Below are positions 10,410 through 17,061 of a DNA stretch of 34,496 nucleotides, one piece after another. Each line of letters starts with the position of its first letter. Positions within the stretch are counted from its first letter, which is position 1. Source of the DNA: a virus. A program made the position numbers and the translations under genes. The stretch is from the IMG/VR virus record IMGVR_UViG_3300031884_000080, positions 1 through 34,496 of that record. One strand, 5' to 3'. The notes beneath the pieces were generated by a model. The model was not told the origin of the DNA, did not search any database, and worked only from the letters and a program-made list of their open reading frames with translations.

Positions 10410-10418
10410 CAACATTTG

Positions 10419-10491
10419 TGCCCCAAGACAGATTCGAACTGTCGCTTGATGGGTTTTAAATCCATTATCTCTACCGCTGGATTATTAGGGC
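10419..10491 (-). tRNA. tRNA with Leu anticodon UAA, short variable loop
   Basis: 73 nt: acceptor GCCCTAA/TTGGGGC, anticodon loop TTTAAAA (TAA), T arm GACAG-TTCGAAT-CTGTC, A73. A31-C39 is a mismatch. The variable loop is only five bases, unlike the long arm of normal tRNA-Leu. Confidence 0.75.
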
Positions 10492-10492
10492 G

Positions 10493-10564
10493 TGTCCCCA
10501 ACTGGATTTGAACCAGCGACCTATCGGTTAAAAGCCGAAAGCTCTACCACTGAGCTATGGAGAC
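10493..10564 (-). tRNA. tRNA-Lys (anticodon UUU)
   Basis: 72 nt, acceptor GTCTCCA/TGGGGAC, loop CTTTTAA, T loop TTCAAAT, A73. Fully paired stems. Confidence 0.92.
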
Positions 10565-10568
10565 TTGG

Positions 10569-10642
10569 TGTGACGTGTGAGATTCGAACTCACGGTAACT
10601 GGGATCACAACCCAGTGCCTTAAACCACTTGGCGAACGCCAC
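10569..10642 (-). tRNA. tRNA-His (anticodon GUG)
   Basis: 74 nt, acceptor GTGGCGT/ACGTCAC, loop TTGTGAT, T loop TTCGAAT. A G precedes position 1, as needed for the His identity base; position 73 is A rather than the usual C. Confidence 0.9.
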
Positions 10643-10644
10643 CG

Positions 10645-10717
10645 TGCTCTAAGTAGGATTTGAACCTACGCTAACTAGTTCCTAAGACTAGTGCCTCTAC
10701 CGCTGGGCTATTAGAGC
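10645..10717 (-). tRNA. tRNA with Leu anticodon UAG, short variable loop
   Basis: 73 nt, acceptor GCTCTAA/TTAGAGC, loop CTTAGGA (TAG) with perfect stem CTAGT/ACTAG, variable loop TTAGC only, T loop TTCAAAT, A73. Confidence 0.8.
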
Positions 10718-10721
10718 TTTG

Positions 10722-10792
10722 CTCCCTCCCCTGGATTCGAACCAAGATTACCAGAGCCAAAATCTGGGGTCCTACCGTTGGACGAAGAGGGA
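10722..10792 (-). tRNA. tRNA-Gln (anticodon UUG)
   Basis: 71 nt, acceptor TCCCTCT/GGAGGGA, loop TTTTGGC, four-base variable loop, T loop TTCGAAT, G73 as in bacterial tRNA-Gln. Confidence 0.9.
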
Positions 10793-10796
10793 ATAG

Positions 10797-10869
10797 AGGC
10801 AATAGTTGGAATTGAACCAACAAGCATCGGTTTTGCAGACCGTGACATTTACCATTCTGTCATATTGCC
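10797..10869 (-). tRNA. tRNA-Cys (anticodon GCA)
   Basis: 73 nt, acceptor GGCAATA/TATTGCC, loop CTGCAAA, T loop TTCAATT, U73, the Cys identity base. Confidence 0.9.
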
Positions 10870-10874
10870 ATTGG

Positions 10875-10947
10875 ACTCGCTAGTAGGAATCAAACCTACA
10901 ACCTTTTGGTTCGTAGCCAAATGTTCTATTCATTGAACTATAGCGAG
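10875..10947 (-). tRNA. tRNA-Arg (anticodon ACG)
   Basis: 73 nt, acceptor CTCGCTA/TAGCGAG, loop CTACGAA, T loop TTTGATT. A34 would need host TadA to become inosine. T73 is unusual for Arg. Confidence 0.88.
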
Positions 10948-10951
10948 TTGG

Positions 10952-11033
10952 CGGAAGGTGAGGAAGTCGAATCCCCAAGAGTGTTACCTCTGCTGTTTTC
11001 AAGACAGTTTCGCTTGCCAATGCTGAACCTTCC
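10952..11033 (-). tRNA. tRNA-Ser (anticodon UGA)
   Basis: 82 nt class II tRNA: acceptor GGAAGGT/ACCTTCC, loop CTTGAAA, long variable arm (AGAG/CTCT), T loop TTCGACT, G73. Confidence 0.9.
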
Positions 11034-11037
11034 TTGG

Positions 11038-11110
11038 TGCTTCTCGTAGGACTCGAACCTACACTGATCGGTGTTTGAAGCCGATGCCTCTACCATTGGG
11101 CTAGAAAAGC
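11038..11110 (-). tRNA. tRNA with Leu anticodon CAA, short variable loop
   Basis: 73 nt, acceptor GCTTTTC/GAGAAGC, loop TTCAAAC (CAA) with a C31-A39 mismatch, variable loop TCAGT, T loop TTCGAGT, A73. D arm is nearly identical to the UAG tRNA at 10645. Confidence 0.75.
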
Positions 11111-11114
11111 ATTG

Positions 11115-11194
11115 TGCCATACCTTGGAATCGAACCAAGCGTGTCGTAGACGACGGATTTACAGTCCGCTGCCCCACCCTGGAGCATGTATGAC
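11115..11194 (-). tRNA. tRNA-Tyr (anticodon GUA)
   Basis: 80 nt class II tRNA: acceptor GTCATAC/GTATGGC, loop CTGTAAA, variable arm with CGTC/GACACG, T loop TTCGATT, A73. Confidence 0.9.
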
Positions 11195-11198
11195 TTGG

Positions 11199-11283
11199 CG
11201 GAAGATGTAGAATTCGAATCTACGGTACATTTCTGTACGTCGGATTAGCAATCCGCTGCCTTAAGCCTCTCAGCCAATCTTCC
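11199..11283 (-). tRNA. tRNA-Ser (anticodon GCU)
   Basis: 85 nt class II tRNA: acceptor GGAAGAT/ATCTTCC, loop TTGCTAA, long variable arm (GTACA/TGTAC), T loop TTCGAAT, G73. Confidence 0.92.
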
Positions 11284-11284
11284 G

Positions 11285-11357
11285 TCGGAATAGAAAGAAT
11301 CGAACTTTCGTTATGCTGGTACCCAAAACCAGTGCCCTACCATTAGGCGATATTCCG
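11285..11357 (-). tRNA. tRNA-Pro (anticodon UGG)
   Basis: 73 nt, acceptor CGGAATA/TATTCCG with the C1-G72 pair expected for Pro, loop TTTGGGT, T loop TTCGATT, A73. Confidence 0.92.
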
Positions 11358-11361
11358 TTGG

Positions 11362-11432
11362 TAGATCCAGAAGGTACTGCCCCTTCTTCTCCAGATTAAG
11401 AGTCTGGAGCATCACTTTAATGCTTCGGATCC
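11362..11432 (-). tRNA. tRNA-Lys (anticodon CUU), degenerate D and T loops
   Basis: 71 nt with all four stems intact: GGATCCG/TGGATCT (G-U at both ends), GCAT/ATGC, CCAGA/TCTGG, GAAGG/CCTTC, and loop CTCTTAA. The D loop TAAAGTG lacks the GG pair and the T loop GGCAGTA lacks TTC, so the normal D-T loop contact cannot form. A73. Function is uncertain. Confidence 0.65.
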
Positions 11433-11433
11433 G

Positions 11434-11505
11434 TAGGAGTAGAAGGATTCGAACCTCCGACTTTCTGTATGTAAGACAGACTTTCTACCGCTGAATTATA
11501 CTCCC
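11434..11505 (-). tRNA. tRNA-Val (anticodon UAC)
   Basis: 72 nt, acceptor GGGAGTA/TACTCCT, loop CTTACAT, T loop TTCGAAT, A73. Confidence 0.92.
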
Positions 11506-11573
11506 GAGCGGATAGTTTTTACTTTTTCACAAGATTACGCCCTTGTGTCAGTCACTATCAAAACTGACTCTCG
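11506..11573 (-). other. Structured 68-base spacer between tRNA-Val and tRNA-Phe
   Basis: Too long for a normal spacer here (most are 2-5 bases). Contains two hairpins in the minus-strand RNA: AGUCA/UGACU and CACAAG/CUUGUG. I could not fit a cloverleaf. It may be a decayed tRNA or a processing element. Confidence 0.4.
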
Positions 11574-11644
11574 TGGGAACACTAGGACTCGAACCTAGAT
11601 ATCTCGGGCTTCAACCGAGTGCTCTTCCTTTGAGCTATATACCC
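11574..11644 (-). tRNA. tRNA-Phe (anticodon GAA)
   Basis: 71 nt, acceptor GGGTATA/TGTTCCC (one T-T mismatch), loop TTGAAGC, T arm CTAGG-TTCGAGT-CCTAG, A73. Confidence 0.88.
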
Positions 11645-11648
11645 TGAG

Positions 11649-11719
11649 TGGAATATAAGGGAATCGAACCCATACTGTCACATTGCAAGTGTGATGTTCT
11701 ACCGTTGAACTAATACCCC
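11649..11719 (-). tRNA. tRNA-Ala (anticodon UGC)
   Basis: 71 nt, acceptor GGGGTAT/ATATTCC with two G-U pairs, loop CTTGCAA, T loop TTCGATT, A73. First tRNA after the terminator at 11728-11754. Confidence 0.9.
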
Positions 11720-11727
11720 AAAACAAA

Positions 11728-11754
11728 AACCCCGCCTTTTTTATTGGCGGGGTT
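11728..11754 (-). terminator. Intrinsic terminator / attenuator ahead of tRNA-Ala
   Basis: Minus-strand AACCCCGCC ... GGCGGGGUU (9 pairs) followed by UUUGUUUU, only a few bases before tRNA-Ala. Its 5' arm can instead pair with GCGGG at 11774-11778, which begins in the stop codon of a 23-codon mini-ORF. Confidence 0.85.
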
Positions 11755-11777
11755 GTAAAGTTAATACAATTATCCCG

Positions 11778-11849
11778 CTACATTTTTGGCACGAAAAATG
11801 AAGGCTTGATCGCCTGGTGTAGTTGATAACTGCGTAAGCAACTGTTCAT
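11778..11849 (-). CDS. Putative 23-aa leader peptide
   Basis: ATG at 11849 has AAAGGA seven bases upstream. The frame ends at UAG directly followed by CGGG, part of the possible antiterminator. Sequence starts MNSCLRSYQLHQ and shows no single enriched residue. A different frame also stays open through the segment, so coding is uncertain; the placement between promoter and terminator is the main evidence. Confidence 0.4.
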   Translation of the reverse strand: MNSCLRSYQLHQAIKPSFFVPKM

Positions 11850-11882: not shown

Positions 11883-11911
11883 ATAATAACACATTGTTAT
11901 TACTTTGTCAA
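11883..11911 (-). promoter_or_regulatory. Promoter TTGACA-N17-TATTAT for the tRNA-Ala unit
   Basis: -35 at 11906-11911, -10 at 11883-11888, placed immediately behind the 3' end of tRNA-Ile(GAU). Starts a leader of about 120 bases before the terminator. Confidence 0.65.
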
Positions 11912-11913
11912 AG

Positions 11914-11988
11914 TAGAGATAAATGGATTTGAACCAATGACTTTCTGTGTATCAGACAGACGCTCTGACCAAACTGAGCTATACCTCT
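11914..11988 (-). tRNA. tRNA-Ile (anticodon GAU)
   Basis: 75 nt, acceptor AGAGGTA/TATCTCT, loop CTGATAC, T loop TTCAAAT, A73. Confidence 0.92.
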
Positions 11989-11989
11989 A

Positions 11990-12065
11990 TGGAGCCTAAT
12001 ATCAGAGTCGAACTGATGACCCTCCGCTTACAAGGCGGATGCTCTGGCCACTGAGCTAATCAGGC
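11990..12065 (-). tRNA. tRNA-Thr (anticodon UGU), CCA encoded
   Basis: Acceptor GCCTGAT/ATTAGGC, loop CTTGTAA, T loop TTCGACT, T73 followed by an encoded CCA (11990-11992), which most tRNAs of the array lack. Confidence 0.92.
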
Positions 12066-12066
12066 G

Positions 12067-12138
12067 TAGCTGTAATTGGAATTGAACCAATACCCTCTCC
12101 GTTATGAGCGGAGCGAACAACCATTGTTCTATACAGCT
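12067..12138 (-). tRNA. tRNA-Met or tRNA-Ile2 (anticodon CAU)
   Basis: 72 nt, acceptor AGCTGTA/TACAGCT fully paired (so not initiator-like), loop CTCATAA, T loop TTCAATT, A73. CAU could be elongator Met or, after lysidine modification, Ile. Confidence 0.88.
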
Positions 12139-12139
12139 T

Positions 12140-12215
12140 TGGAGCGAATAGCGGGACTCGAACCCGCACAAAAACTTTGGAAGAGTCTGATGCTTGCCAA
12201 TTACATCATATTCGC
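12140..12215 (-). tRNA. tRNA-Gly (anticodon UCC), CCA encoded
   Basis: Acceptor GCGAATA/TATTCGC, loop CTTCCAA, T arm GCGGG-TTCGAGT-CCCGC, T73 then encoded CCA (12140-12142). Confidence 0.9.
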
Positions 12216-12216
12216 G

Positions 12217-12288
12217 TACCCCCAGAGGTACTCGAAACCTCTTCGCCAAGATGAAAGCCTGGCATCCTAACCTATAGACTATGGGGGC
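12217..12288 (-). tRNA. tRNA-Glu (anticodon UUC)
   Basis: 72 nt, acceptor GCCCCCA/TGGGGGT with G1-U72, loop CTTTCAT, T arm GAGGT-TTCGAGT-ACCTC, A73. Confidence 0.9.
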
Positions 12289-12369
12289 ATGTGGCCTGAT
12301 ATAAATTAACTAGTCTTTATACCAGTGCCGTCCTGCAATTCGCTTCAACTTAGTGAACCCCTTGCATTG
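12289..12369 (-). other. Structured 81-base spacer between tRNA-Glu and tRNA-Asp
   Basis: Minus-strand RNA has a 10-pair hairpin CUGGUAUAAA/UUUAUAUCAG with loop GACUAGUUAA (12294-12323) and a smaller GCAAU/AUUGC stem before it. No cloverleaf fits. A 12-codon frame starting at TTG after AAGGGG stops at a UAG in the large loop. A decayed tRNA or a third leader-like element is possible. Confidence 0.45.
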
Positions 12370-12443
12370 CGATCTCAACGGGACTTGAACCCGTAGCCTC
12401 TACCGTGACAGGGTAGCGATCTAACCGATTGATCTATGAGACC
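12370..12443 (-). tRNA. tRNA-Asp (anticodon GUC)
   Basis: 74 nt, acceptor GGTCTCA/TGAGATC, loop CTGTCAC, T loop TTCAAGT, G73 as expected for Asp. Confidence 0.93.
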
Positions 12444-12447
12444 TTAG

Positions 12448-12523
12448 TTGCGGATGAAGGATTTGAACCTCCGATCTCCAGCTTATGAGACTGGCGGGAA
12501 TAACCGAACTTCCCCAATCCGCC
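12448..12523 (-). tRNA. Initiator-like tRNA-Met (anticodon CAU)
   Basis: 76 nt. Loop CTCATAA, T8-G9, T loop TTCAAAT and the end CCGCA-A match tRNA-fMet. Position 1 is G and 72 is A, an unpaired end as in bacterial initiators (C1-A72 in E. coli). The anticodon stem lacks the usual three G-C pairs of initiators, so the role is likely but not sure. Confidence 0.8.
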
Positions 12524-12535
12524 AAGTTTAAATGG

Positions 12536-12606
12536 CATGGGCGGTAGGAATTGAACCCACTCCAAGAGGTTTGGAAGCTCTTGTGCTACCATTACACTAC
12601 GCCCAA
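12536..12606 (-). tRNA. tRNA-Trp (anticodon CCA)
   Basis: 71 nt, acceptor with T1-T72 mismatch then TGGGCG/CGCCCA, loop TTCCAAA with C31-C39 mismatch, T arm GTGGG-TTCAATT-CCTAC, G73 as in tRNA-Trp. The mismatches lower confidence in the anticodon. Confidence 0.72.
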
Positions 12607-12607
12607 G

Positions 12608-12679
12608 CTGGTCATCTTGGATTCGAACCAAGAACCACCCGATTAACAGTCGGGTGCTCTGCCGTTGAGCTAATGACCA
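12608..12679 (-). tRNA. tRNA-Asn (anticodon GUU)
   Basis: 72 nt, acceptor TGGTCAT/ATGACCA, stem CCCGA/TCGGG, loop CTGTTAA, T loop TTCGAAT, G73 as in Asn. First tRNA of the long array; its 5' end directly follows the terminator U-tract. Confidence 0.93.
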
Positions 12680-12680
12680 A

Positions 12681-12711
12681 TAAAAAAACCCCGTCTATTT
12701 TATGACGGGGC
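12681..12711 (-). terminator. Intrinsic terminator / attenuator ahead of tRNA-Asn
   Basis: Minus-strand CCCCGUC/GACGGGG (7 pairs plus a flanking G-U), then seven U. The alternative stem GGGGUUU (12725-12731) with AAGCCCC (12707-12713) uses the same 5' arm, so the two folds exclude each other. Confidence 0.85.
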
Positions 12712-12731
12712 TTAATAAAACATAAAACCCC

Positions 12732-12818
12732 TTACGATTCAATTGTCCAATCGGCAATTGACATGTTTCCATTATCATTGCCTGTATTCATTGTGGTGTA
12801 AGCGTTTTTCTCGTTCAT
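12732..12818 (-). CDS. Putative 28-aa Asn-rich leader peptide
   Basis: ATG at 12818 is exactly six bases after TATAAT, so the transcript would begin at or next to the start codon (leaderless). The 28 codons include Asn at positions 2, 5, 11, 14, 16 and 18. The UAA stop is directly followed by GGGGUUU, the possible antiterminator strand, and then by the terminator and tRNA-Asn. The order promoter, peptide, alternative hairpins, tRNA-Asn matches amino-acid-operon attenuators. Translation is not proven. Confidence 0.55.
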   Translation of the reverse strand: MNEKNAYTTMNTGNDNGNMSIADWTIES

Positions 12819-12824
12819 GTCTTT

Positions 12825-12854
12825 ATTATAGCATACTCAATATAATAATGTCAA
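12825..12854 (-). promoter_or_regulatory. Consensus promoter TTGACA-N18-TATAAT for the tRNA-Asn array
   Basis: Perfect hexamers at 12849-12854 and 12825-12830, abutting the stop codon of the cupin gene. Predicted start at about 12818. Confidence 0.8.
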
Positions 12855-16894: not shown

Positions 16895-16905
16895 TTAAAA
16901 GTAAG

Positions 16906-17025
16906 GTACGGTAAGCAATTCCAGCACATTGAATGGCTGCCCTATCTATCCACATGAACTCATTCACGCTCACACGGGTATGTATATGTAACTATAACAT
17001 CCTAAGAAAGTGTTGCTTACCGTAC
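16906..17025 (-). ncRNA. Candidate structured ncRNA, about 120 nt
   Basis: Bounded by a perfect 13-base inverted repeat, GUACGGUAAGCAA (17013-17025) and UUGCUUACCGUAC (16906-16918). The promoter at 17032-17061 places the transcript start at the first paired base. Inside are a GCGUGAA/UUCAUGU hairpin and small stems. After the closing stem come CUUACUUUU and then tRNA-Ile(UAU). No protein frame is convincing. I do not recognise an RNA family; Y RNA and 6S RNA features were not found. Confidence 0.6.
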
Positions 17026-17031
17026 TCTTAT

Positions 17032-17061
17032 ATTATACTATAATGTATTATTTAATGTCAA
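17032..17061 (-). promoter_or_regulatory. Consensus promoter TTGACA-N18-TATAAT for ncRNA and tRNA-Ile
   Basis: -35 at 17056-17061 within the hsp20 end, -10 at 17032-17037. Same spacing as the tRNA-Asn, tRNA-Arg and hsp20 promoters. Confidence 0.8.

Follow-up and report, generated by a model that had tools for sequence, protein, structure and literature searches.

Predicted trp-type attenuators ahead of phage tRNA operons encode leader peptides that sample the amino acids of the operons' own tRNAs

Introduction

In the attenuators of the trp, his, thr, and ilvGMEDA operons, a leader peptide carries the test codons, its stop codon lies near the antiterminator strand, and an intrinsic terminator precedes the first gene. 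Of these, the leaders of ilvGMEDA and thr each test at least two amino acids. In the E. coli pheST attenuator, a leader peptide regulates a tRNA-charging gene, and the product feeds back on the quantity that is tested. T-box riboswitches likewise sense tRNA charging and control transcription termination, but they bind tRNA directly and have no leader peptide.

Here, we describe phage tRNA units that share the leader peptide, the arrangement of stop codon and antiterminator, and the terminator of the biosynthesis attenuators. They differ in that the genes under their predicted control are tRNAs, which would make the product the very molecule being sensed. In addition, one leader in the phage analyzed here samples as many as 12 amino acids, and many phage leaders seem to be nearly leaderless. 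The units resemble pheST in their product feedback, but pheST controls an aminoacyl-tRNA synthetase and tests a single amino acid. With T-boxes they share the tie to tRNA charging and termination, although not the direct binding of tRNA.

What phage tRNAs do has been debated for decades. In the portions of two papers available to us (PMC10264068, PMC11555353), phage tRNAs are supplied where host defenses hit tRNAs. This anti-defense supply is a likeness to the units described here, but the available portions of these papers treat tRNA function instead, and the PMC10264068 text does not mention promoters, attenuation, or terminators. Among open PubMed Central papers, as far as their accessible text goes, we found none that describes a tRNA operon attenuated through a leader peptide.

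Results

The window, by which we mean the whole 34.5-kb (34,496 nt) IMG/VR record that we analyzed, is judged by a WhiB-like gene to derive from an actinophage. Its tRNA array lies on the minus strand and contains two units, each with a promoter, a short ORF, an antiterminator/terminator pair, and tRNAs:

12825-12854, minus strand: predicted unit 1 promoter; TTGACA, 18-nt spacer, TATAAT (12/12 consensus), with TG ahead of the −10 box
12732-12818, minus strand: predicted leader ORF 1; 28 codons, MNEKNAYTTMNTGNDNGNMSIADWTIES; all 8 unit 1 amino acids present
12704-12731, minus strand: predicted antiterminator 1; GGGGUUU immediately past the stop codon with AAGCCCC of the terminator 5′ arm
12680-12713, minus strand: predicted intrinsic terminator 1; AAGCCCCGTC-ATAAAATA-GACGGGGTTT and a T tail, adjoining tRNA-Asn
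11913-12679, minus strand: tRNA unit 1; Asn, Trp, Met, Asp, Glu, Gly, Met, Thr, Ile (ARAGORN, Rfam RF00005)
11883-11911, minus strand: predicted unit 2 promoter; TTGACA, 17-nt spacer, TATTAT (11/12 consensus)
11778-11849, minus strand: predicted leader ORF 2; 23 codons, MNSCLRSYQLHQAIKPSFFVPKM, with AAGGAACGAAAG just before; all 12 unit 2 amino acids present
11747-11778, minus strand: predicted antiterminator 2; pairing of GCGGG at the stop codon with CCCGC, and also of UUGUA with UACAA
11720-11754, minus strand: predicted intrinsic terminator 2; AACCCCGCC-AATAAAAAA-GGCGGGGTT and a T tail, adjoining tRNA-Ala; −16.8 kcal/mol
10418-11719, minus strand: tRNA unit 2; Ala, Phe, Val, Lys(CTT), Pro, Ser(GCT), Tyr, Leu(CAA), Ser(TGA)-like, Arg, Cys, Gln, Leu(TAG), His, Lys(TTT), Leu(TAA) (ARAGORN and Rfam)

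An initial annotation had described unit 1 as a perfect promoter, a 28-codon ORF with six Asn codons, a GGGGUUU after its stop codon that can pair with AAGCCCC, and a terminator adjoining tRNA-Asn(GUU), and we recovered each of these parts. The Asn codons are codons 2, 5, 11, 14, 16, and 18, and the TAA stop codon (12734-12732) is immediately followed by GGGGUUU. Folded alone, the GGGGUUU/AAGCCCC hairpin has an energy of −9.8 kcal/mol, which 4 of 200 shuffles equal; the terminator hairpin has −16.5 kcal/mol, which none of 200 equal. The T tail reaches the edge of the tRNA-Asn(GUU) gene (12679-12607, minus strand; ARAGORN). Since the leader ORF ATG, at 12818, is only 6 nt past the −10 box, a leaderless or near-leaderless unit 1 transcript is plausible.

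The same annotation had overlooked unit 2, which extends from the promoter at 11911-11883 to tRNA-Ala, the first tRNA of the unit, beginning at 11719 on the minus strand. Antiterminator 2 folds alone at −10.6 kcal/mol, and 5 of 200 shuffles equal it. ARAGORN missed two genes of this unit. One, Lys(CTT) (11362-11432, minus strand), matches RF00005 with 36 bits, while the sole match of the other, Ser(TGA)-like (10953-11033, minus strand), is to the tRNA-Sec model, below the cut-off. We read the identities of both from their anticodon arms, and adding them leaves the amino acid set of unit 2 unchanged. Two minus-strand gaps of 67-80 nt between array tRNAs (12289-12368 and 11506-11572) match no tRNA model.

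The amino acids served by unit 1 (N, W, M, D, E, G, T, I) and unit 2 (A, F, V, K, P, S, Y, L, R, C, Q, H) do not overlap and sum to all 20. Each leader peptide follows the set of its own unit: 21 of 27 residues of peptide 1 belong to the unit 1 set, with 8/8 members present, and 19 of 22 residues of peptide 2 belong to the unit 2 set, with 12/12 present. In tests run post hoc, as the match had already been noticed (the tests on other phages described below are independent of it), the division of peptide residues between the two tRNA sets (21/6 and 3/19) gave a Fisher p of 9.5e-6. When 200,000 peptides were sampled from the amino acid composition of the proteins that this phage encodes, the joint probability was 5.5e-5 for peptide 1 and about 5e-5 for peptide 2, and coverage of all 12 amino acids by peptide 2 had P = 4e-4. 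Of real protein segments from the window, 0 of 5,010 carried the complete set 2 (12 amino acids), 1 of 5,005 had at least 21 set 1 residues, and 102 of 5,005 carried the complete set 1 (8 amino acids).

Thus, the leaders match the whole tRNA set of their unit, not Asn. The earlier proposal that the unit 1 leader senses Asn specifically is not supported, as peptide 1 has residues for every one of the eight tRNA identities of unit 1, and Asn is just one among them. Codon choice for Arg, Ser, and Leu in the window leaders showed no significant agreement with the isoacceptor box, so isoacceptor-specific sensing is not supported.

We examined whether other viral tRNA clusters share this design using two IMG/VR scans for a GC-rich terminator immediately ahead of a tRNA T-arm, each returning at least 120 matches. 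Leader ORFs were picked mechanically (ATG, 10-45 codons, stop codon within 75 nt of the terminator, longest kept); some picks are probably wrong (e.g., L277, L270) and were left in the test. In all, the pattern scans added more than 100 non-redundant multi-tRNA units built in the same way as those of the window. Among the matches listed, own-set residues made up 41.7% of the leaders of 88 non-redundant multi-tRNA units, compared to 24.6% when sets were shuffled among leaders. With the window left out (86 units, among the matches listed), the values were 40.7% and 24.1% (z = 15.7, 0/10,000 shuffles). Frames +1 and +2 of the same leaders carried no signal (z = −0.8 and −0.6), and a control segment upstream of the leaders of the 86 units gave z = 2.2. 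Again among the matches listed, all 20 amino acids were commoner, by 1.5- to 4.2-fold, in leaders whose unit has the corresponding tRNA. Of 103 units tested singly, 73 reached p < 0.05 and 36 reached p < 0.001. A third viral scan, with another terminator pattern and the procedure unchanged, replicated the match (35.9% versus 18.9%, z = 8.7).

Examples include Gln-only units whose leaders contain Q runs (L322, L345) and a unit with Asp, Asn, and Phe tRNAs preceded by the leader MKTINFNFDFDNRT (L257). In two huge-phage records, LR745206 and LR756501, we found two such leaders and one, respectively. Three tRNA units with matching leaders occur in Tunturi_5, a cultured phage that infects Tunturiibacter psychrotolerans X4BP1. 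Own-set residues in these leaders number 16/31, 25/36, and 37/48, and all set members are present in each; leader 1, whose ORF spans 231156-231254 of PP885688, came from the standard procedure and leaders 2 and 3 from reading the sequence upstream of the tRNAs. This phage also codes for a tRNA nucleotidyltransferase and a tRNA splicing ligase. The available text of the Tunturi_5 paper gives 43 tRNAs and does not mention leaders, attenuation, or terminators. In GTDB genomes, a small sample of just 4 non-redundant multi-tRNA units with an ORF was recovered. One GTDB contig, SDZD01000028.1 (L502), has a Phe and Met tRNA unit with the leader MSRSMFMSFMGQFIGRDGTHRKTEA.

The own-set excess depends on position. 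Counted from the start, codons 2-3 show no excess, the ratio is highest at codons 7-15 (about 2.4-2.6), and over the last six codons it is down to 1.1-1.2. Stalling attenuation predicts such a gap at the end, because a ribosome halted there would continue to mask the strand at the stop codon. Among the matches listed, the stop codon lies 15-31 nt upstream of the terminator in 87% of 86 units.

The region of the stop codon is also unusually complementary to the 5′ arm of the terminator. Our first test, of contiguous stems with one mismatch, gave a weak signal (mean z 1.29, 23% at p < 0.05). The test that we quote came second and used duplex energies allowing bulges (mean z 1.56, p = 2e-14, 36% at p < 0.05), with a median of −10.9 kcal/mol at the stop region compared to −5.5 kcal/mol for a control segment further upstream. 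Taken singly, with the 5′ strand alone shuffled, the window antiterminators were not significant (p = 0.16 for unit 1 and 0.12 for unit 2), and minimum-energy folds of the full window leaders show the terminator.

Boxes resembling a −10 element occur 6-11 nt ahead of the ATG in 28 cases, compared to 10 in a control region, and Shine-Dalgarno-like sites are scarce (20 of 118). Together, these features suggest that the leader messages are near-leaderless.

The support for this design comes from other phages that share it, and not from copies of the same sequence. The expectation that close relatives would conserve the unit 1 leader was not borne out: ten relatives found with a Dps-like query (L129-L138), the nearest of those retrieved that carry an array, lack both a leader ORF and a terminator ahead of tRNA-Asn, and their arrays begin with a different structured RNA or directly behind a gene. 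In two records with 100% terminase identity to the window (L004, L006), the contigs stop short of the array. Searches with a cupin-like protein query, with tRNA-Asn patterns, and with leader DNA against the terminase relatives returned no close copy of the window leader. In homologous pairs, own-set residues were not conserved significantly better than other residues (109/156 versus 156/246, p = 0.20).

Discussion

We conclude that trp-type ribosome-mediated attenuation very likely governs these tRNA operons, with leader peptides that sample the amino acids of each unit's own tRNAs. A predicted short translatable ORF lies ahead of each window operon (12818-12732 and 11849-11778), its test codons are tied to the products of the operon in both the window and the class, and an intrinsic terminator separates the leader ORF from the first gene. 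Across the class, a predicted alternative hairpin, whose 5′ strand a ribosome at the stop codon would cover, shares the 5′ arm of the terminator, although the window hairpins are individually weak. The trp-leader logic of the initial annotation is therefore strongly supported by two units in the window, more than 100 elsewhere, and position-specific codon enrichment; its Asn specificity is not.

In the mechanism that we infer, each half of the window array is one attenuated operon. RNA polymerase would start just upstream of the short ORF and meet the terminator right before the first tRNA. The ORF would serve as a test message, composed mostly of the amino acids of the operon's own tRNAs. A ribosome that reaches the stop codon would cover the strand there, allowing the terminator to form, and no tRNA would be made. 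Should any of the tested aminoacyl-tRNAs be scarce, the ribosome would stall within the ORF and leave that strand free to pair with the 5′ arm of the terminator, and the tRNAs would be transcribed. The tRNA genes of this phage thus probably sit behind a stop signal that is opened only by ribosome stalling on the test message. We prefer stalling followed by readthrough because it accounts for frame, position, and complementarity together.

Of the other explanations, the one that fares best keeps the same parts but takes the signal to be a general failure of translation, in which an untranslated leader would form the 5′ antiterminator first and the tRNAs would be made. The layout agrees with this, since an antiterminator placed 5′ of the terminator would fold ahead of it as transcription proceeds if no ribosome arrives. 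However, this explanation leaves the match between leaders and their own tRNAs, which extends to all 20 amino acids, unaccounted for, and we regard it as unlikely.

Far less probable is that each terminator merely ends transcription of an upstream gene and the ORF occurs by chance. Some tRNAs next to a terminator indeed have no matching leader (L145, L425, L430), and single-tRNA units in the third viral scan showed no own-set match (z = 0.6). For the class, this explanation is already contradicted by the strength of the multi-tRNA match, its replication, and the silence of the other frames, and both window terminators are preceded by a promoter-like site and an ORF of their own.

Two further explanations are, in our judgment, barely tenable. 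T-boxes regulate aminoacyl-tRNA-related genes by codon-anticodon pairing, and the leader RNA could similarly bind tRNA anticodons directly, without a ribosome. Yet the signal is limited to one frame between ATG and stop codon and shows no dependence on the isoacceptor box, and an Rfam scan of the whole window at the gathering threshold gave tRNA only and no T-box family. Nor is the peptide likely to be the product, a small protein acting in infection, for although short phage ORFs often yield functional peptides, leaders of the same set, such as the Cys-Val-Leu leaders L276, L288, L305, and L487, resemble one another more in composition than in sequence, and the own-set excess tails off around six codons before the ORF ends.

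If stalling attenuation is correct, tRNA genes join the targets of ribosome-mediated attenuation, in a feedback loop that senses its own product. Phage genomes themselves would then tell what their tRNAs respond to, with each leader a readable, testable sensor, making it possible to test directly what phage tRNAs respond to, be it codon demand, amino acid shortage, or tRNA-cleaving defenses. As more than 100 unrelated viral tRNA clusters look alike, many phages may make tRNAs only when translation is short of them. More tentatively, and with somewhat less than an even chance in our estimation, a leader could report the loss of any tRNA that its operon replaces, such that cleavage of host tRNAs by anti-phage nucleases would induce the matching phage tRNAs.

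Such leaders may have been overlooked because six phage genomes lack them in the stretches that we checked: upstream of the tRNAs in these stretches of T5, XacN1, BillNye, Yucca, C48C1, and RN05-S, we found no terminator-like hairpin.

We also noted an RNA of ~115-130 nt that is closed by a covarying stem and carries CTTAGGATG..ATAGTTACA as a motif; it occurs in the window (16905-17035, minus strand), L006, L012, L085, and L129-L136. Scans of the window and of L124-L128 at the Rfam gathering threshold gave no match for this RNA. In the relatives, it sits between a promoter and the first tRNA, and in the window, it precedes tRNA-Ile(TAT). Recurrent stretches of ~150 nt that contain TCTGAACAA and look structured lie between the tRNAs of L129, L137, and L138.
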